A DNA stretch of 64,000 nt from assembly GCF_021513215.1 (NCBI RefSeq), contig NZ_CP090975.1:923501-987500 (forward strand), written 5' to 3'. This stretch comes from Suttonella sp. R2A3. GTDB lineage: Bacteria; Pseudomonadota; Gammaproteobacteria; Cardiobacteriales; Cardiobacteriaceae. Both the position numbers and the translations under genes were made by a program. The stretch's first letter is position 1, and each line of letters begins with the position of its first letter. Positions 5,593 through 12,565 of the stretch are shown here, in pieces. The notes under the pieces are model-generated. The model was not told the origin of the DNA, did not search any database, and worked only from the letters and a program-made list of their open reading frames with translations.

Positions 5593-6207
5593 ATGACACC
5601 AAGTTACTGGCAACAAGCCACCGACGCACTCAGCAAACGCGACGCCACAATGGCTGAATTAATATCGCGCTACCCTGATAGCTGCATGCAAAGCCGTGGG
5701 CGACCGTTTGTCACCTTATTGCGCGCGATTGTTGGTCAGCAAATTTCGGTCAAAGCCGCTGATGCGATTTGGGCGCGATTAAACGATACAACTGCGCTCA
5801 ATCCACAACACGTAGCGCAAATTGATCGTGACACCTTGCGCAGCTTAGGGCTTTCGCGCCAGAAAGCTGATTATATGCATGCGGTGTGTACGTATTTTTT
5901 AGACAATGACATCCATGATGATTATTTCAGCGCGCTTAGCGATAGTGAGATCATCAGCGAACTTTCTGCTATTCACGGTATTGGGCGCTGGAGTGCTGAG
6001 ATGTTTTTAATGTTCACGTTATTACGCCCCAATGTGTTTCCAGTCGCTGATTTAGGTCTGCTTCGTGCCCTGGAAAAACATTATCATGGCGCACGTCTAA
6101 CCCCTGCACAAGCGCGCGATCTCTATCAAAAACGCTTTGATCCATGGTGCAGCGTAGCGACATGGTATCTGTGGCGCAGTTTGGATCCGGTAGAAATTCA
6201 GTATTAA
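5593..6207 (+). CDS. HhH-GPD DNA-3-methyladenine glycosylase (AlkA-like)
   Basis: 204-aa base-excision repair enzyme. The helix-hairpin-helix is visible at LSAIHGIGRWSAEMFLMF, followed by the catalytic aspartate in FPVADLGLLRAL. LRAIVGQQISVKAADAIW is the usual lead helix. It has only the HhH-GPD core and lacks the extra N-terminal domain of E. coli AlkA, as in many short bacterial members. The ATG at 5593 was chosen over 5569 because GGAG lies 8 bp before it. Its 3' end abuts the IS30 remnant 14 bp downstream, so it is the last housekeeping gene before the accessory region. Confidence 0.92.
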   Translation: MTPSYWQQATDALSKRDATMAELISRYPDSCMQSRGRPFVTLLRAIVGQQISVKAADAIWARLNDTTALNPQHVAQIDRDTLRSLGLSRQKADYMHAVCTYFLDNDIHDDYFSALSDSEIISELSAIHGIGRWSAEMFLMFTLLRPNVFPVADLGLLRALEKHYHGARLTPAQARDLYQKRFDPWCSVATWYLWRSLDPVEIQY

Positions 6208-6221
6208 TATGCAAAGAGGTA

Positions 6222-6244
6222 GATTCAACATCGAAGTACAACGC
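6222..6244 (+). repeat. IS30 terminal inverted repeat, left
   Basis: GATTCAACATCGAAGTACAA plus three bases. It matches the reverse complement of 7071-7093 at 17 of 23 positions by eye. The truncated transposase reading frame runs into it and ends at a TGA inside the repeat. Confidence 0.75.
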
Positions 6245-6992
6245 AACCAAAGAAGTAGATATCTGTGTCTAGGGTATCTGCAATGATGTCATGCTTTGCA
6301 AATTCTTTACTGTTATCGAATGTGGTACTGAGTGTTTGTTCACCTTTGAGCATATCAATACAGGTATCAGCCACTAACTGTGCTTTACGGTTAGACAGGG
6401 CTTTGATTTTGGTTTCTCTGGTGGTTCTATCCACTAAGGTAAGTAAAACGCCTTGATGCCCTTTACCAACCACTGTGCCACCTTCATAGTCTCCGATGCG
6501 TGTACACTCTTCTATGATATCAGGACGTTCAGTAATATCTCGACGATTTACTATTTGCCCCCGCCTATCTTGACCTTGTAAAGCGCGTTTTCGGTAGGTC
6601 TTTTGACAGCGCAGGTGCTTGTATAGCTCACCACCTGATTGTTTATCAGCGTAGATATATTGGTAGATAGTTTCATGGCTTGGCACATCATCCCAGCCTA
6701 AAAGCTTAAGCCTACCTGTGATTTGTTCAGGCGAATATTGACGATGCAGTAAATAGTCAACATAGTGCCAGCCAAAGTCATTTATTGCAGGGCTATTTAT
6801 GGCTTTACACTCAGTCGCTAATCTATGTGCCTGTTTTGGGCGATAACCACGTTGGCCTCGGTTACGCTTAATCTCTCTACTCACAGTAGATTTATGACAG
6901 CCAAGGATTTTGGCGATATCACTTAAAGAGATATTGGCTTGCAATAAGGCTGGTATTTGTATCTTTTTTTCTGAGTAAGATGCGTGTAGTGT
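6225..6992 (-). pseudogene. IS30-family transposase, C-terminally truncated
   Basis: The reading frame keeps the helix-turn-helix (LSDIAKILGCHKSTVSREIKRN) and the first part of the DDE domain (GKGHQGVLLTLVDRTTR; FDNSKEF carries the second Asp). It stops soon after DTDIYF, where intact family members continue with the NENTNGLIRQYF region holding the catalytic Glu. The first catalytic Asp, expected in a WEIDTVIG-like motif, aligns with Gly here (YEGGTVVG). No ATG is present at the N terminus; the frame is open from about 6992 with TTG at 6944. I infer an inactive remnant. Confidence 0.85.
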
Positions 6993-7070
6993 TTAATGAC
7001 GTTCCGATATGTAGGAATTGAAGGCGAAGTGCAACACAGCACATCTTACTTCTCAACTCGTTAATATGAA

Positions 7071-7093
7071 TCGTTGCACTTCAGGGTTGAACC
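7071..7093 (-). repeat. IS30 terminal inverted repeat, right
   Basis: Begins TCGTTGCACTTCAGGGTTGA. It is the inverted partner of 6222-6244. A third, direct-orientation relative (core GGCGAAGTGCAACA) lies at about 7022-7035 inside the element, hinting at a nested or tandem end. Confidence 0.72.
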
Positions 7094-7100
7094 CTCCAAT

Positions 7101-7119
7101 CATAATGATAACGCTTCCC
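7101..7119 (+). promoter_or_regulatory. Candidate Fur box upstream of the TonB receptor
   Basis: CATAATGATAACGCTTCCC matches the E. coli 19-bp Fur consensus at 13 of 19 positions, including the uninterrupted ATAATGATAA. It lies about 60 bp before the receptor ATG and 7 bp outside the IS30 right end, a sensible place for iron repression of the cassette. Confidence 0.55.
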
Positions 7120-7180
7120 ATTACCAAAAATATGCATTAATATTCGCAACATTACATTTTGTCTATTTTTGGAGAGCTAT

Positions 7181-9946
7181 ATGTATTTCCTGCATCACTT
7201 CACCAACAAACTAACAGCGCTTGTACTCGCCACCTCAATGGCGTTATCTGTGCTACCCGCTCTGGCACAAGACGTTGATAAACAAGCAGGTGTACGGGAT
7301 GTTAATGATGAACAAACCACACGCAAGATATTAAGTTTAGATGATATTGTTGTATTGGGTGCTAACGATACCAGAGGAGGCGCCGCGCGCGATTCCAAAG
7401 GCTATGAAGACGTTTATGCACTTGATATTTCCACCACTTACGCAGGATTCGAAGAGGTACAACGCTTCAAAGGTTCAGCACCAGCAGAAATATTTCGCGG
7501 CATGATTGGTGTGCAAAGTGGGGATATGCGTAATAGTGGCGCGATTGACCCAAATGTGCGTGGCGTTCAGGGACAAGGTCGTGTGCCAGTAATTATCGAT
7601 GGCACCGAGCAAGCGCTTACTGTCTGGCGCGGTTACAACGGTGCCAATAACCGCAATTACCTTGATCCCATGCTGATCGGCGGTTTGCAAGTTGAGAAAG
7701 GCCCTTCTATGACGCGTGGGGTTAACGGCTCAGTGGGTGGTGCAGTGGTGATTAATACCATCGATATTGATGATATTGTGCCCGAAGGTGAAAATTTTGC
7801 CCTTAATTTTCGTTTTGAGGGCAGTAATAATACGGTGAAGCCACGCCTTCCAGCACTCGCCGAAGGTGTTGATGTGTTGAGCGATGAATTTAAACCTTTG
7901 TACCCAAATTCTGCTCGACCAAATCCACTCTTTTTCCCTCTAATTGACCCTGATGTTATTAAAACGCCGCATAATGGTGGGCGCAACAAATTTGGTCAAG
8001 ATATGGCGTATCGTATTGCTATCGGCAAACGTTGGGAAAGCGTCGATGTAATGGCCGCGCTAGTCCATCGGAATCGTGGCAATTATTTTGCGGGCAGCAA
8101 AGGCAGCGAATTATATTCAAGTAACGAATCTCGTTTCAGTGTAAAAGAGGATAACACGGCAAAAATGGCAAGGATTTATCACCCCGGTGATGAAGTGTTC
8201 AACACCTCTGCCACCACTACATCTGCGCTGGCCAAAGTTAACTGGCACCCCAATGATGAGCACGCGTTGCAATTAGGCTTACGCAACACGGTCAGCCGCT
8301 ATGGTGAAATTCTACCTTCGCGTTTAGATGCATTCCTAAATTCAGTGGTTAATGCAAAACTTTATGGTGTGGGAGCACATAAACTACCGCAATGGCCGCA
8401 GTCGAAATTACATAGTATGGCAGCTAATGTAGAGTGGCGTTGGCGACCAGCTAACCCATATATTGATTTAAATTCCAATCTATGGTTGACCAGAACCGTC
8501 ACCGACACCCATACTTCTGGTGGTTGGCCTCGGGAAACCATGGCTGAGACTTTCTTTTTTGCTCAATTAAAACAAATTTGTGTTCCAGGTCATCCTTACT
8601 ATCCATCACCTTATTGCGCTGCATTTCGTGATTTTCCTGATATGATCCCCAAAATCAATAAAACCTATCGCTCTTCGCAAACTAATGCCACTAATACCCG
8701 CCTTGGTCTGTCAATCAGCAATAAAATGAATTTAAATCCTAAAGTTGATTTAACTTTAGGGACGAATTACCAGTATGAAAAGCTGCGCTCTTCAGATAAT
8801 TGGTGGTACGGCAGAACACAAGAATTTATGGACGCAAATGCTATTGGATCTTCACCAGCACCACTTGTTAGTAGCATGTGGAATTTCCGCGCTCACCCGC
8901 GTGAGGGGCATCGTCAGGAGTTAAACGTTAACGCCAAACTAGACTACCGACCTAATGATTGGGCGGAACTCAGCGCTGGAGTAAATTTTGGTTATTATCG
9001 CGCGTTCGACGATCACCTGCAGCGCATGAAAAGCGAAGATAATAAAGGCTACCGTAATTATCCTTGGCCGGAAACGTGGTCAGGATCAGCATGGTCGCCA
9101 ATGCTTTCTGGTACGTTATTTTTTAGCGATTACTCGCGTCTTTACGGACGGATTGCACAAAAAGCACGTTTTCCAAGCATGTTTGAAAGTACTATTGGTT
9201 TTTCTGCTATTCCGACACTTACTTCAAGTAGTCAAAAAGAAGGCGGTTGGGGAGATGCAGTGATGAATACCACGCCGCTTAAACCAGAACGCACCACCAG
9301 TTTTGAATTAGGCTATGTACATGATTTACGGCAGTTCTTCCCTAGTGCGCAATATGCTGATATCAAAATAGCGTATTACCATAACATCACCAAGAATATA
9401 ATTGATCGGGATACTCGTTTCCGCTTCCGTAACATGGAAAAACAGACCCTTAGTGGCGCAGAATTGCAGGCACGTTATGATAGTGGGCACTTTTTCGGCG
9501 ATTTAGGCATCTCACGCTCAATTAAAAATGAAGTGTGTGACCAAAAAACAGCTGCCATTCTTGCTAGTTATCAAGAATTCAGTGGAGGATGCGTCCATGG
9601 CGGTTATCCTTATGGTTATTTGCAAAATACCGTCCCCCCTAAATACACCATTTCATTAGGCTTGGGTGGACGTTTTGTGGATAACGATTTAACCATCGGT
9701 ACACGCATTTTGCATCACAGCAAACCTAATAAGAATCGTGAATTTTTAGCAAATTACAACAATCCATTATATTGGGACAAAGTGACAACGGTTGATGCGT
9801 ACCTCAATTATCAGTTTGATGACACAACCAGCGTTGAACTAACGGGCACAAACCTGACTGATCGCTACTTTCTCGATCCACAGAGTCGTACCCGTAACCC
9901 CGCACCAGGTAGAACGATTAAGTTGACATTCAGCAAAACGTTCTAA
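7181..9946 (+). CDS. TonB-dependent heme/hemophore receptor (HphR-like)
   Basis: 921-aa outer-membrane receptor. A signal peptide (residues 1 to about 30, ending LPALA) is followed by a plug domain (about 50-190, with FRGMIGVQSGD, GRVPVIIDGT and GSVGGAVVINT) and a long 22-strand barrel ending in Phe (TIKLTFSKTF). GGAG sits 6 bp before the chosen ATG; an in-frame TTG at 7169 was rejected. It is followed by a hemophilin-like gene and a Slam gene, the arrangement described for HphR-HphA-Slam heme-uptake systems, so the ligand is most likely a heme-loaded hemophore. Receptor class is certain; ligand is inferred from neighbours. Confidence 0.92.
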   Translation: MYFLHHFTNKLTALVLATSMALSVLPALAQDVDKQAGVRDVNDEQTTRKILSLDDIVVLGANDTRGGAARDSKGYEDVYALDISTTYAGFEEVQRFKGSAPAEIFRGMIGVQSGDMRNSGAIDPNVRGVQGQGRVPVIIDGTEQALTVWRGYNGANNRNYLDPMLIGGLQVEKGPSMTRGVNGSVGGAVVINTIDIDDIVPEGENFALNFRFEGSNNTVKPRLPALAEGVDVLSDEFKPLYPNSARPNPLFFPLIDPDVIKTPHNGGRNKFGQDMAYRIAIGKRWESVDVMAALVHRNRGNYFAGSKGSELYSSNESRFSVKEDNTAKMARIYHPGDEVFNTSATTTSALAKVNWHPNDEHALQLGLRNTVSRYGEILPSRLDAFLNSVVNAKLYGVGAHKLPQWPQSKLHSMAANVEWRWRPANPYIDLNSNLWLTRTVTDTHTSGGWPRETMAETFFFAQLKQICVPGHPYYPSPYCAAFRDFPDMIPKINKTYRSSQTNATNTRLGLSISNKMNLNPKVDLTLGTNYQYEKLRSSDNWWYGRTQEFMDANAIGSSPAPLVSSMWNFRAHPREGHRQELNVNAKLDYRPNDWAELSAGVNFGYYRAFDDHLQRMKSEDNKGYRNYPWPETWSGSAWSPMLSGTLFFSDYSRLYGRIAQKARFPSMFESTIGFSAIPTLTSSSQKEGGWGDAVMNTTPLKPERTTSFELGYVHDLRQFFPSAQYADIKIAYYHNITKNIIDRDTRFRFRNMEKQTLSGAELQARYDSGHFFGDLGISRSIKNEVCDQKTAAILASYQEFSGGCVHGGYPYGYLQNTVPPKYTISLGLGGRFVDNDLTIGTRILHHSKPNKNREFLANYNNPLYWDKVTTVDAYLNYQFDDTTSVELTGTNLTDRYFLDPQSRTRNPAPGRTIKLTFSKTF

Positions 9947-9974
9947 CTATTGATTTTTAAACCATCGACAAATA

Positions 9975-10014
9975 AAATGACAATGATTATTGTTAATAAT
10001 AATCATTGTCATTT
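9975..10014. promoter_or_regulatory. 40-bp near-perfect palindrome with Fur-like half-sites
   Basis: Two perfect 17-base arms (AAATGACAATGATTATT and its reverse complement) flank a 6-base GTTAAT centre that is itself nearly symmetrical. The AATGATTATT/AATAATCATT half-sites resemble Fur operators. The second arm is followed by TTTGTTTTT, so the RNA would form a strong hairpin resembling a terminator. It lies between the receptor stop and the hemophore ribosome site, with only 19 bp left before the ATG. It could be an operator, an attenuator, or a hairpin protecting the hemophore mRNA. Confidence 0.7.
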
Positions 10015-10033
10015 GTTTTTAGGGGTTTATATT

Positions 10034-10810
10034 ATGCAGAAATTAACTAAACTGACTTTATCTGTGCTTGCTTTGAGTGTGAGTTACAGTGCTCAGGCGG
10101 AATTAGCTGGTGCTCAGAGTACGCCAAGCAACAACGTAAACTATATTCAAGTTGGTGGCACGAACTATAGCAATGATGATCCTAATGGCCATATTGGCCC
10201 TGAAGGCAGCCCAGGGATCATGGTCAATAAGATGTCTCCCAATCCCAATGATCGTAAATATGTTAGTCTTTTAGGCATGCAATTTATTGCTTGGCCAGAT
10301 TGGAACGGCGTTACTCATCTTGATGATAACACACCTTTTTTACCTGCCAGTCATGCTCAAAATATTGGCACCCACGATTACTCACGCGTGAGTATTTCTG
10401 GAGCCGAAGTGTATTTTGGAGAATGGAGCCAAAACGGCGAATTAAACGCCCCAGATCGTCAGGTATGGTATGTGGGTAAAGACAAAACCAGCAATATGCC
10501 TACCAGTGGTAGTGCTACTTACAATGTCAAAGGCATTCGTCAGTACCAGCACAATGGCATGATGACGGGCACATTAACCGCTAACTTTGCCACCAATAAA
10601 CTCAGCGGCAATGTTGGTGACATTAACTTTGGCAACAACGTAAATATCGACAGCAATAATGCCTCATTTGCTGGTGGGGTTAGTGTTGGTAGCACACCAG
10701 GGGGGACAGAAGGCCATTTCTTTGGTAATAATGCGGCACAATTAGCTGGCATTGCCACCTTTGCCAGCAACAAAAATTTAGATACTGCTTTTGGTGGTAA
10801 GAAACAATAA
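10034..10810 (+). CDS. Slam-dependent hemophilin-like secreted heme-binding protein (HphA-like)
   Basis: 258-aa exported protein. A signal peptide (residues 1-22, cleavage after AQA) is not followed by a lipobox Cys, and the mature protein has no cysteine, so it should be a soluble hemophore rather than a lipoprotein. The C terminus has the TbpB-like eight-stranded barrel signature used for Slam recognition (EGHFFGNNAAQLAGIATF, then LDTAFGGKK). The N-terminal part (about 23-150) has aromatic and His-rich stretches (GTHDYSRVSISGAEVYFGEW) as in hemophilin handle domains. The start at 10034 follows AGGGG; an earlier frame-open start at 9950 would run through the palindrome and lose the signal peptide. 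Confidence 0.87.
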   Translation: MQKLTKLTLSVLALSVSYSAQAELAGAQSTPSNNVNYIQVGGTNYSNDDPNGHIGPEGSPGIMVNKMSPNPNDRKYVSLLGMQFIAWPDWNGVTHLDDNTPFLPASHAQNIGTHDYSRVSISGAEVYFGEWSQNGELNAPDRQVWYVGKDKTSNMPTSGSATYNVKGIRQYQHNGMMTGTLTANFATNKLSGNVGDINFGNNVNIDSNNASFAGGVSVGSTPGGTEGHFFGNNAAQLAGIATFASNKNLDTAFGGKKQ

Positions 10811-10835
10811 ACTAATTGCACTGTAAGCAATAGAT

Positions 10836-10861
10836 GGCTGGTATCTCTATGGATATCAGCC
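10836..10861 (+). other. Stem-loop between hemophore and Slam genes
   Basis: GGCTGGTATC and GATATCAGCC form a 10-bp RNA stem with one G-U pair around a TCTATG loop. It is followed by a broken T tract (GTCTTGATTGT), so a weak terminator or processing site is possible. It could lower expression of the outer-membrane translocator relative to the secreted protein. Confidence 0.5.
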
Positions 10862-10895
10862 GTCTTGATTGTATCAAACATAACCTATACTCATT

Positions 10896-12332
10896 ATGAC
10901 CGCCACCATCACACGCATACTGCTGTTGCTCACAACCGTGTTGAATACTGGTATCAGCTATGGCGAAGAATCTGTGATCGCACAACGTCTATGGCAAGAA
11001 AGCATACAACTGCGCAATCAAGAACAAACCACTTTGCTGGCAACTATTGCCGCCAATAATACACAGAGTACAGTACAAAACCCTAGCGGCGTTGATCCGT
11101 TAATTGTTACTCTGTTTGATACCATTAACCAAGGTCAGTCCGTACCTTTACGCCAATTCCTCAATGAACACTCGAACCGTTTCTACCACAATGATCCTCT
11201 TTGGCTTTACGCACAAGCCAGTCTTGCTCGCTTAGAAGGTCGAACCCGTGCTGCCGAGCAAGGATATCGTCAAACCTTAGATCAAGCACCAGACTTTATC
11301 CGTGCACGCCTAGATTTAGCTAAATTATTATTTAATGATCAACAAAATCGTGAGGCGCAGCAAGCATTTGGTGTATTGAATGCCCAGCTATTACCACCCA
11401 CGGTACGCAACAACATCAATCTTTACCAGCAAGCATTAGGTATGCGTGAGCGTTGGCAGGGAAGCGTTTCTTTAGGTCTGATCACAGATAATAATATTAA
11501 CCAAAGCAGTGAAACAAACCAATGCTTATTTTCCTATCAGAAAGTATGCCTTGTTGAACGATCCACACCGGCTGCCATTGCTACCAGTGGACTAGGCTAT
11601 GAAGGCACCCTGAGCAAATACTGGCCTTTAAGAGGACATCACGGCCTCTACGGTCGCGGTTTGATTTATGGTCAACAAATCCCTAATTATCTTACCTATA
11701 ACAAAACCACCATTCAATTAGGTGCCGGCTATCAATTTGCCAATGCAACACAACATTTCTCATTTGGTCCAATATGGATAGGGCATAGAGAAGCCAATCA
11801 TCAACAGTTCAATGGTGTGGGGGTCGCCGCACAATGGCGAATTCAACCCAACAATACAATGGCATGGGATATGTATGCCGAGCACAAAACTATTCGTTAC
11901 ACACATGCTGATTATCAACAAAACAACAGCACTGATAACAATATCCATGTCACGTTTAGCACAGCTTGGCCTGAGGGTTGGCGTAGTCATATTGGTTTCG
12001 ATTATCTGCGTCGTGACACAGATCAAGCGGTTAACAGCTATCAACAAAAAGGCATCCGCCTTAGCGTTGACAAGCTTTTTGCACAAGGCTTTATGGCCAG
12101 TTTAGGTGGTGCATTCTACGAGATTGATTACAATGCCTACAACGCCCTTCTTGAACAAACTCGGCATGAGCGAAAATGGACGTTTAACGCCGCCATTAGC
12201 GCGCCACAATGGCAAATAGGTGGTTTCTCACCTAAACTATCTTGGCAACGTACGCGCTTAAACAGCAATGTTGATTGGTTATATAGCTATGATCAAGATC
12301 AGTTTATGCTCACTTTCCAGCGTTTGTTTTAA
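10896..12332 (+). CDS. Slam outer-membrane translocator (DUF560 family)
   Basis: 478 aa. A signal peptide (1 to about 23) leads into an alpha-helical TPR-like region (about 50-170; WLYAQASLARLEGRTRAAEQGY, FIRARLDLAKLLFNDQQNREA) and then a C-terminal barrel beginning at WQGSVSLGLITDNNINQSS and ending with FMLTFQRLF, the plan of surface lipoprotein assembly modulators. Slam proteins move TbpB-like lipoproteins and hemophilins across the outer membrane. The immediately preceding hemophilin-like gene is the obvious client. No strong ribosome site is seen before the ATG. Its end marks the end of the accessory cassette. Confidence 0.88.
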   Translation: MTATITRILLLLTTVLNTGISYGEESVIAQRLWQESIQLRNQEQTTLLATIAANNTQSTVQNPSGVDPLIVTLFDTINQGQSVPLRQFLNEHSNRFYHNDPLWLYAQASLARLEGRTRAAEQGYRQTLDQAPDFIRARLDLAKLLFNDQQNREAQQAFGVLNAQLLPPTVRNNINLYQQALGMRERWQGSVSLGLITDNNINQSSETNQCLFSYQKVCLVERSTPAAIATSGLGYEGTLSKYWPLRGHHGLYGRGLIYGQQIPNYLTYNKTTIQLGAGYQFANATQHFSFGPIWIGHREANHQQFNGVGVAAQWRIQPNNTMAWDMYAEHKTIRYTHADYQQNNSTDNNIHVTFSTAWPEGWRSHIGFDYLRRDTDQAVNSYQQKGIRLSVDKLFAQGFMASLGGAFYEIDYNAYNALLEQTRHERKWTFNAAISAPQWQIGGFSPKLSWQRTRLNSNVDWLYSYDQDQFMLTFQRLF

Positions 12333-12445
12333 CCCAGATTATGTATTAGCAATCGAACTATCACGTAGTTATATGAATGCACAAATTATTTCTAAAGAAA
12401 CACCATGCTTATTTTAGGGCGTAGGTTGAAAAATAGTTTGTAGGT

Positions 12446-12565
12446 TTAAGGGACGGGTGAAAACAATTCTTTAATGAATAACCCATAGTTCCATTCAGAA
12501 CCTCGTATCAATAATTTCTTACAATCCAATTGCTCTGCCCAGCGGAACGCAGTAAGATATGCCGC
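12446..12565 (-). pseudogene. Possible short coding remnant in the Slam-glyA gap
   Basis: The 260-bp gap between the Slam gene and glyA has no intact gene. On the minus strand a 39-codon open stretch has protein-like composition (AFRWAEQLDCKKLLIRGSEW, then NYGLFIKELFSPVP and TAA) but no start codon. It may be the 3' end of a gene lost when the cassette or IS moved in. I do not recognise the family, and chance cannot be excluded. Confidence 0.3.

Follow-up and report, generated by a model that had tools for sequence, protein, structure and literature searches.

A divergent hemophilin cassette, very probably for iron-controlled heme scavenging, in Suttonella sp. R2A3

The described systems that most resemble the locus reported here combine a TonB-dependent receptor, a soluble hemophilin and a Slam translocator. 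The HphR-HphA-HsmA set of A. baumannii comprises a TonB receptor, a soluble bis-histidine hemophilin and a Slam, and it has been shown to be functional (PMC8560813). Heme is held by H43 and H106 in A. baumannii HphA (PMC8560813), and the cluster includes hemO and a tonB-like gene. Xenorhabdus nematophila HrpA-HrpB-HrpC, compared here by description, is made up of a receptor, a T11SS pore and a soluble hemophilin homologue, and the Hrp locus includes tonB (PMC8406197). Slam-type secretion has been shown for HrpB-HrpC, the release of HrpC being HrpB-dependent (PMC8406197). Hpl of Haemophilus haemolyticus (6om5) is also a soluble Slam/T11SS-type cargo with a clamp and a barrel (PMC10964412). HasA-HasR shares with these systems a secreted hemophore that feeds a TonB receptor, but HasA is exported by a type I pump and not by Slam.

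The window analysed here is a stretch of 64,000 nucleotides (G000:C1:923501-987500), and it carries a hemophilin-type cassette that very probably scavenges heme under iron control. Three intact genes, all on the + strand, occupy positions 7181-12332 and encode the receptor, the hemophilin and the Slam in that order, which is also the order in the Acinetobacter and S. maltophilia loci. Gene identity, fold, conserved ligand residues, gene order and a Fur-like operator are established for the cassette in this work. A first-pass annotation had placed three consecutive genes at these positions and read them as a Slam-exported hemophilin and a TonB-dependent receptor for heme, and domains, fold, ligand residues and gene order all support that core reading. 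Its cassette span of 7101-12332 was right at the end but not at the start; position 7101 lies in upstream promoter sequence and the receptor gene opens at 7181. Unlike the A. baumannii cluster and the X. nematophila locus, the window cassette has no adjacent hemO or tonB, and it differs from the A. baumannii cluster in having a strong Fur-like operator between the receptor and hemophilin genes.

The hemophilin gene (10034..10810, + strand) encodes a secreted protein of 258 residues with a heme clamp at about residues 20-142 and a barrel at about 155-257. Both HphA_N (6.1e-15) and HphA_C (2.2e-13) are matched above the Pfam cut-offs, and a sequence search finds six PDB hemophilin sequences, the best being 8gmm (2.6e-28). 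Read from the sequence, the protein has no Cys, a signal peptide that ends in AQA and no lipobox. This agrees with the earlier description of a secreted cysteine-free protein, and the motifs quoted there, FFGNNAAQLAG and LDTAFGGKK, are present. The NCBIfam model matched by the protein is named 'Slam-dependent surface lipoprotein'; there is no Cys, and the name therefore suits the family and does not indicate lipidation. The genome is one contig of 1.99 Mb, on which HphA_C has a single match, the hemophilin of the window. A HasA-type hemophore was considered and rejected, as Pfam searched at E up to 10 gives only HphA, HpuA, TbpB and FHBP models plus one chance match.

The structure prediction that the first-pass annotation had proposed was carried out, and the whole mature protein aligns with solved hemophilins. 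The model was built on an alignment of 38 hemophilins and has a pLDDT of 90.8 and a pTM of 0.87. Its residues 22-258 superpose on the S. maltophilia hemophilin 8gmm, the best structural match, with Z 30.3 and 2.2 A over 222 residues at 38% identity. The top five matches (Z 30.3, 28.2, 27.9, 27.8 and 27.0) are all hemophilins. Hemophilins of S. maltophilia, V. harveyi, H. haemolyticus, H. parainfluenzae and A. baumannii rank first, with Z 26.7-30.3 over the mature protein (Foldseek, VIA-align). Among them, Hpl scores Z 27.9, and A. baumannii HphA (7re4/7rea) has the same fold at Z ~27 and is ~30% identical over the structural alignment. The N-terminal domain and the ligand had both been thought undescribed. 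The domain is in fact the heme clamp HphA_N (PF22828), with hemophilins of several genera solved in the PDB, and heme is the likely ligand because both ligand histidines are conserved. H53 is kept in 61/63 and H107 in 55/63 aligned hemophilins by sequence, and the two align with H43 and H106 of A. baumannii HphA. Bis-histidine heme binding by the window hemophilin is thus likely on sequence grounds. S. maltophilia hemophilin also has both histidines. A Haemophilus quentini relative of Hpl has its first ligand histidine in an alignment gap, whereas the window hemophilin keeps both.

The receptor gene (7181..9946, + strand) encodes a TonB-dependent outer-membrane receptor of 921 residues and of the HphR, or hemophilin-receptor, type. 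Barrel (1.8e-23) and plug (1.1e-8) are matched above the curated Pfam cut-offs, and in a tree the protein clusters with receptors of hemophilin loci. Its score against the heme/hemoglobin receptor model TIGR01785 is 205.4 bits, below the curated cut-off of 316.85. By sequence the nearest solved receptor is HasR. The third gene (10896..12332, + strand) had been called a Slam/DUF560 translocator, and the profile searches confirm it. The 478-residue product consists of a TPR domain and a SlipAM barrel, matching TPR_Slam (1.3e-15, 58.1 bits against a cut-off of 35.2) and SlipAM (1.8e-40, 139.7 bits against a cut-off of 22). The hemophilin and the Slam therefore gave the profile matches that had been suggested as a check, and the matches of all three cassette proteins go far beyond what chance would give. 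No solved Slam was matched by a sequence search with the window protein, so the assignment rests on Pfam. Its cognate barrel cargo adjoins the Slam gene, the hemophilin gene stopping 85 bases upstream.

Between the receptor and hemophilin genes lies a perfect inverted repeat at 9975..10014, with 17-nt arms at 9975-9991 and 9998-10014. It contains a 16/19 match to the Fur consensus at 9992-10010, which is the sole match of at least 15 in the window, where 0.1 would be expected. Because this Fur-like repeat precedes the hemophilin gene, the hemophilin-Slam pair probably has its own iron-controlled promoter, the repeat acting as a putative operator for both genes. Upstream of the receptor gene, at 7101..7125 (+ strand), are two overlapping 13/19 matches. 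Chance would produce about nine matches of that quality in the window, which leaves the pair not significant by itself and possibly fortuitous.

By analogy with characterised relatives, we infer that the window cassette binds heme, secretes its hemophilin through Slam, docks it at the receptor, responds to iron and feeds a downstream route. The 258-residue hemophilin would be exported via Sec, and Slam would then recognise its C-terminal barrel, move it across the outer membrane and set it free as a soluble hemophore. Once outside the cell, the N-terminal clamp may capture heme from hemoglobin or other heme proteins and bind it through H53 and H107, and the hemophilin would pass it to the adjacent TonB-dependent receptor. 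Powered by TonB-ExbBD, heme could then move inward and reach an ABC importer and a HugZ-like oxygenase, whose genes lie ~357 kb away. The cassette had been described as a complete path, and this stands for the outer-membrane part only, as the candidate inner-membrane and cytoplasmic parts are encoded elsewhere in the genome. They lie in locus L108 (4098-10478; G000:C1 ~570097-576477), where ExbB-ExbD-TonB genes are divergent from genes for a periplasmic binding protein, a HugZ-like protein (DUF2470, PNPOx), a BtuC/HmuU-type permease and a heme-type ATPase. These genes score below the cut-offs of specific NCBI models, so that L108 is proposed as a heme import route from resemblance and gene order. 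The genome also encodes a ferrochelatase; the HemO and HemS families were not found in it.

The role of the secreted protein could also be defensive. A free scavenger by nature deprives neighbours of heme, and Hpl of Haemophilus haemolyticus acts in this way against non-typeable H. influenzae in mouse and culture work (PMC10964412). It is nonetheless unlikely that the window hemophilin mainly withholds heme from competing bacteria with its own uptake secondary, since its gene immediately follows that of a matching receptor and a putative route for heme import is encoded elsewhere in the genome. Withholding and uptake are in any case compatible, the one not excluding the other. Much less probable is a clamp that serves a different metal complex instead of heme, for example a cobalt or corrinoid compound. 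Some T11SS cargo that share the barrel are cobalt-linked, CrpC-type proteins being described as cobalt receptor proteins (PMC12282271), and the L108 ABC genes score best, although below the cut-off, against B12-type models. The window protein, however, matches HphA_N and conserves both heme-ligand histidines, and its closest structures are holo (heme) hemophilins. Least probable of all is a co-receptor held at the surface, in the manner of HpuA or TbpB, in place of a free hemophore: HpuA and TbpB_B_D models match the barrel and the NCBIfam name speaks of a lipoprotein, but a protein that has no Cys has no lipobox of the kind that marks the HpuA lipoprotein, the HpuA match (PF16960) covers only residues 162-257, in the shared barrel, HphA_N is present, and the next structural matches after the hemophilins, HpuA at Z 17.5 and TbpB at ~16, fall well below 30.3.

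Uptake by way of a released hemophilin may involve more than one receptor. The genome has two more receptors of the window type, neither with an adjacent hemophilin, which makes three hemophilin-type receptors against one hemophilin and one Slam of that type. The paralogous receptor at L105 7499-10413 (G000:C1 ~997498-1000412) is 58% identical to the window receptor. The signal-peptide start of this paralogue and its receptor body lie in different frames, with seven A in a row separating them. The gene may be broken, the homopolymer may slip or the sequence may contain an error, and the data favour none of the three. The other receptor, of 1200 residues, is intact (L018 8016-11618, - strand; G000:C1 ~734576-738617 including a Slam remnant) and has a 17/19 Fur match ~50 bases upstream. 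On the same strand, ~325 bases downstream of it, is a Slam C-terminal remnant of 38 codons (L018 7577-7690; E 6.8e-4, profile 251-288). We read this locus as an apparent second cassette from which the hemophilin and most of the Slam have disappeared, leaving the receptor intact. HphR works in part alone, without hemophilin (PMC8560813). A tentative suggestion, held with low confidence, is that the window hemophilin now serves as a shared heme shuttle for several receptors, or that the orphan receptors work without one.

Other Slam-linked systems were observed in the genome. L016 2813-9493 (G000:C1 ~1339812-1346492) groups genes for a TbpA/LbpA-type receptor, for a TbpB-type lipoprotein and for another Slam, and this is a second, different Slam-linked iron system. 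At L017 ~8150-10474 (- strand; G000:C1 ~131150-133473) the gene for a barrel lipoprotein of the factor-H-binding-protein type (NF041466, 5e-16, below the cut-off) adjoins a Slam gene whose barrel end lies in another frame. Near the paralogous receptor, L105 301-4668 encodes, by eye, five tandem related secreted proteins of 269-303 residues; three of the five were tested against Pfam and gave no match. A mevalonate kinase-like gene adjoins a diphosphomevalonate decarboxylase gene at L105 4665-6552. The mevalonate pathway is uncommon in gammaproteobacteria.

The cassette adjoins an IS remnant, as the first-pass annotation had noted. This is a truncated, transposase-like frame of the IS30 type (6225..6944, - strand) that matches HTH_38 (Pfam), is ~31% identical to frames in a relative (tblastn) and is a neighbour, not a working part, of the cassette. 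Housekeeping genes do flank the locus, glnE and a DNA glycosylase gene on one side and glyA-nrdR-rib on the other, yet the site is a synteny breakpoint. In a genome of the same genus (G001), the SDR-ksgA-surA-lptD run comes immediately after glnE and the DNA glycosylase gene, and glyA-nrdR is on another contig; in the window the run starts only at 20.8 kb (20814). Because G001 joins the glycosylase gene straight to that run, the cassette and the IS30-type remnant are at a rearrangement boundary, the breakpoint region being 6207-12559. A clean empty site for the cassette was not found in relatives, where the flanking order is itself rearranged. Third-position G+C is 0.39-0.40 in the cassette genes, lower than the 0.50-0.52 of glnE, glyA and ribD but close to the 0.44 of surA and lptD. 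Horizontal gain of the cassette fits the sequence data without being proven by them, the alternative being loss in the relatives.

For the wider distribution, the hemophilin alignment was run against the 84,980 species of the genome_contigs collection and gave 62 loci; the single hemophilin protein as query gave no match in the same collection. Receptor, hemophilin and Slam genes follow one another on one strand in 58/62 loci, at times with one or two genes between. Two Providencia loci, related to X. nematophila Hrp, have the order hemophilin-Slam-receptor in contrast to that of the window, and the remaining two (2/62) comprise one without a receptor in the available stretch and one with the Slam cut by the contig end. 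Some Stenotrophomonas loci have two tandem hemophilins, where the window has one. Compact three-gene cassettes are thus the norm among related loci, and the compactness first put forward as a novelty is not one. Compact loci without an obvious adjacent hemO or tonB were also seen by eye in a Neisseriaceae MAG and in Haemophilus massiliensis. A contig titled as a Rickettsia endosymbiont MAG (JAHXDM010000024.1; L056) has a Stenotrophomonas-like hemophilin cassette and is probably misbinned.

The cassette proteins are divergent, the hemophilin being at most ~44% identical to any relative found. A plasmid search gave only relatives of <60% identity. The window proteins are on long branches in trees. 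By tree path the nearest relative of the hemophilin and the Slam is the Neisseriaceae MAG, which is also nearest to the receptor after the receptor's own paralogue. Branch support near the hemophilin and the Slam is weak and, given this and the long branches, no donor is named. HphA_N is matched in 1/12 genomes of the bacterial family, namely the window genome, and no close receptor of the window type was found in the other 11. HphA_C alone gives weaker barrel matches in family relatives, as expected for other Slam cargo. When 369 genomes were drawn evenly from the class, HphA_N was matched in one other genome.

The cassette is a standard kit and a divergent addition to a known kind, for which structures and functional tests are available from other bacteria. 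How such a cassette works has already been established in relatives. What the cassette adds is a deep, isolated hemophilin branch in a family where no other sampled genome has one. An intact cassette, what appears to be a decayed one and an orphan receptor occur in one genome, and this makes it testable whether hemophilin receptors share a hemophore or forgo it.
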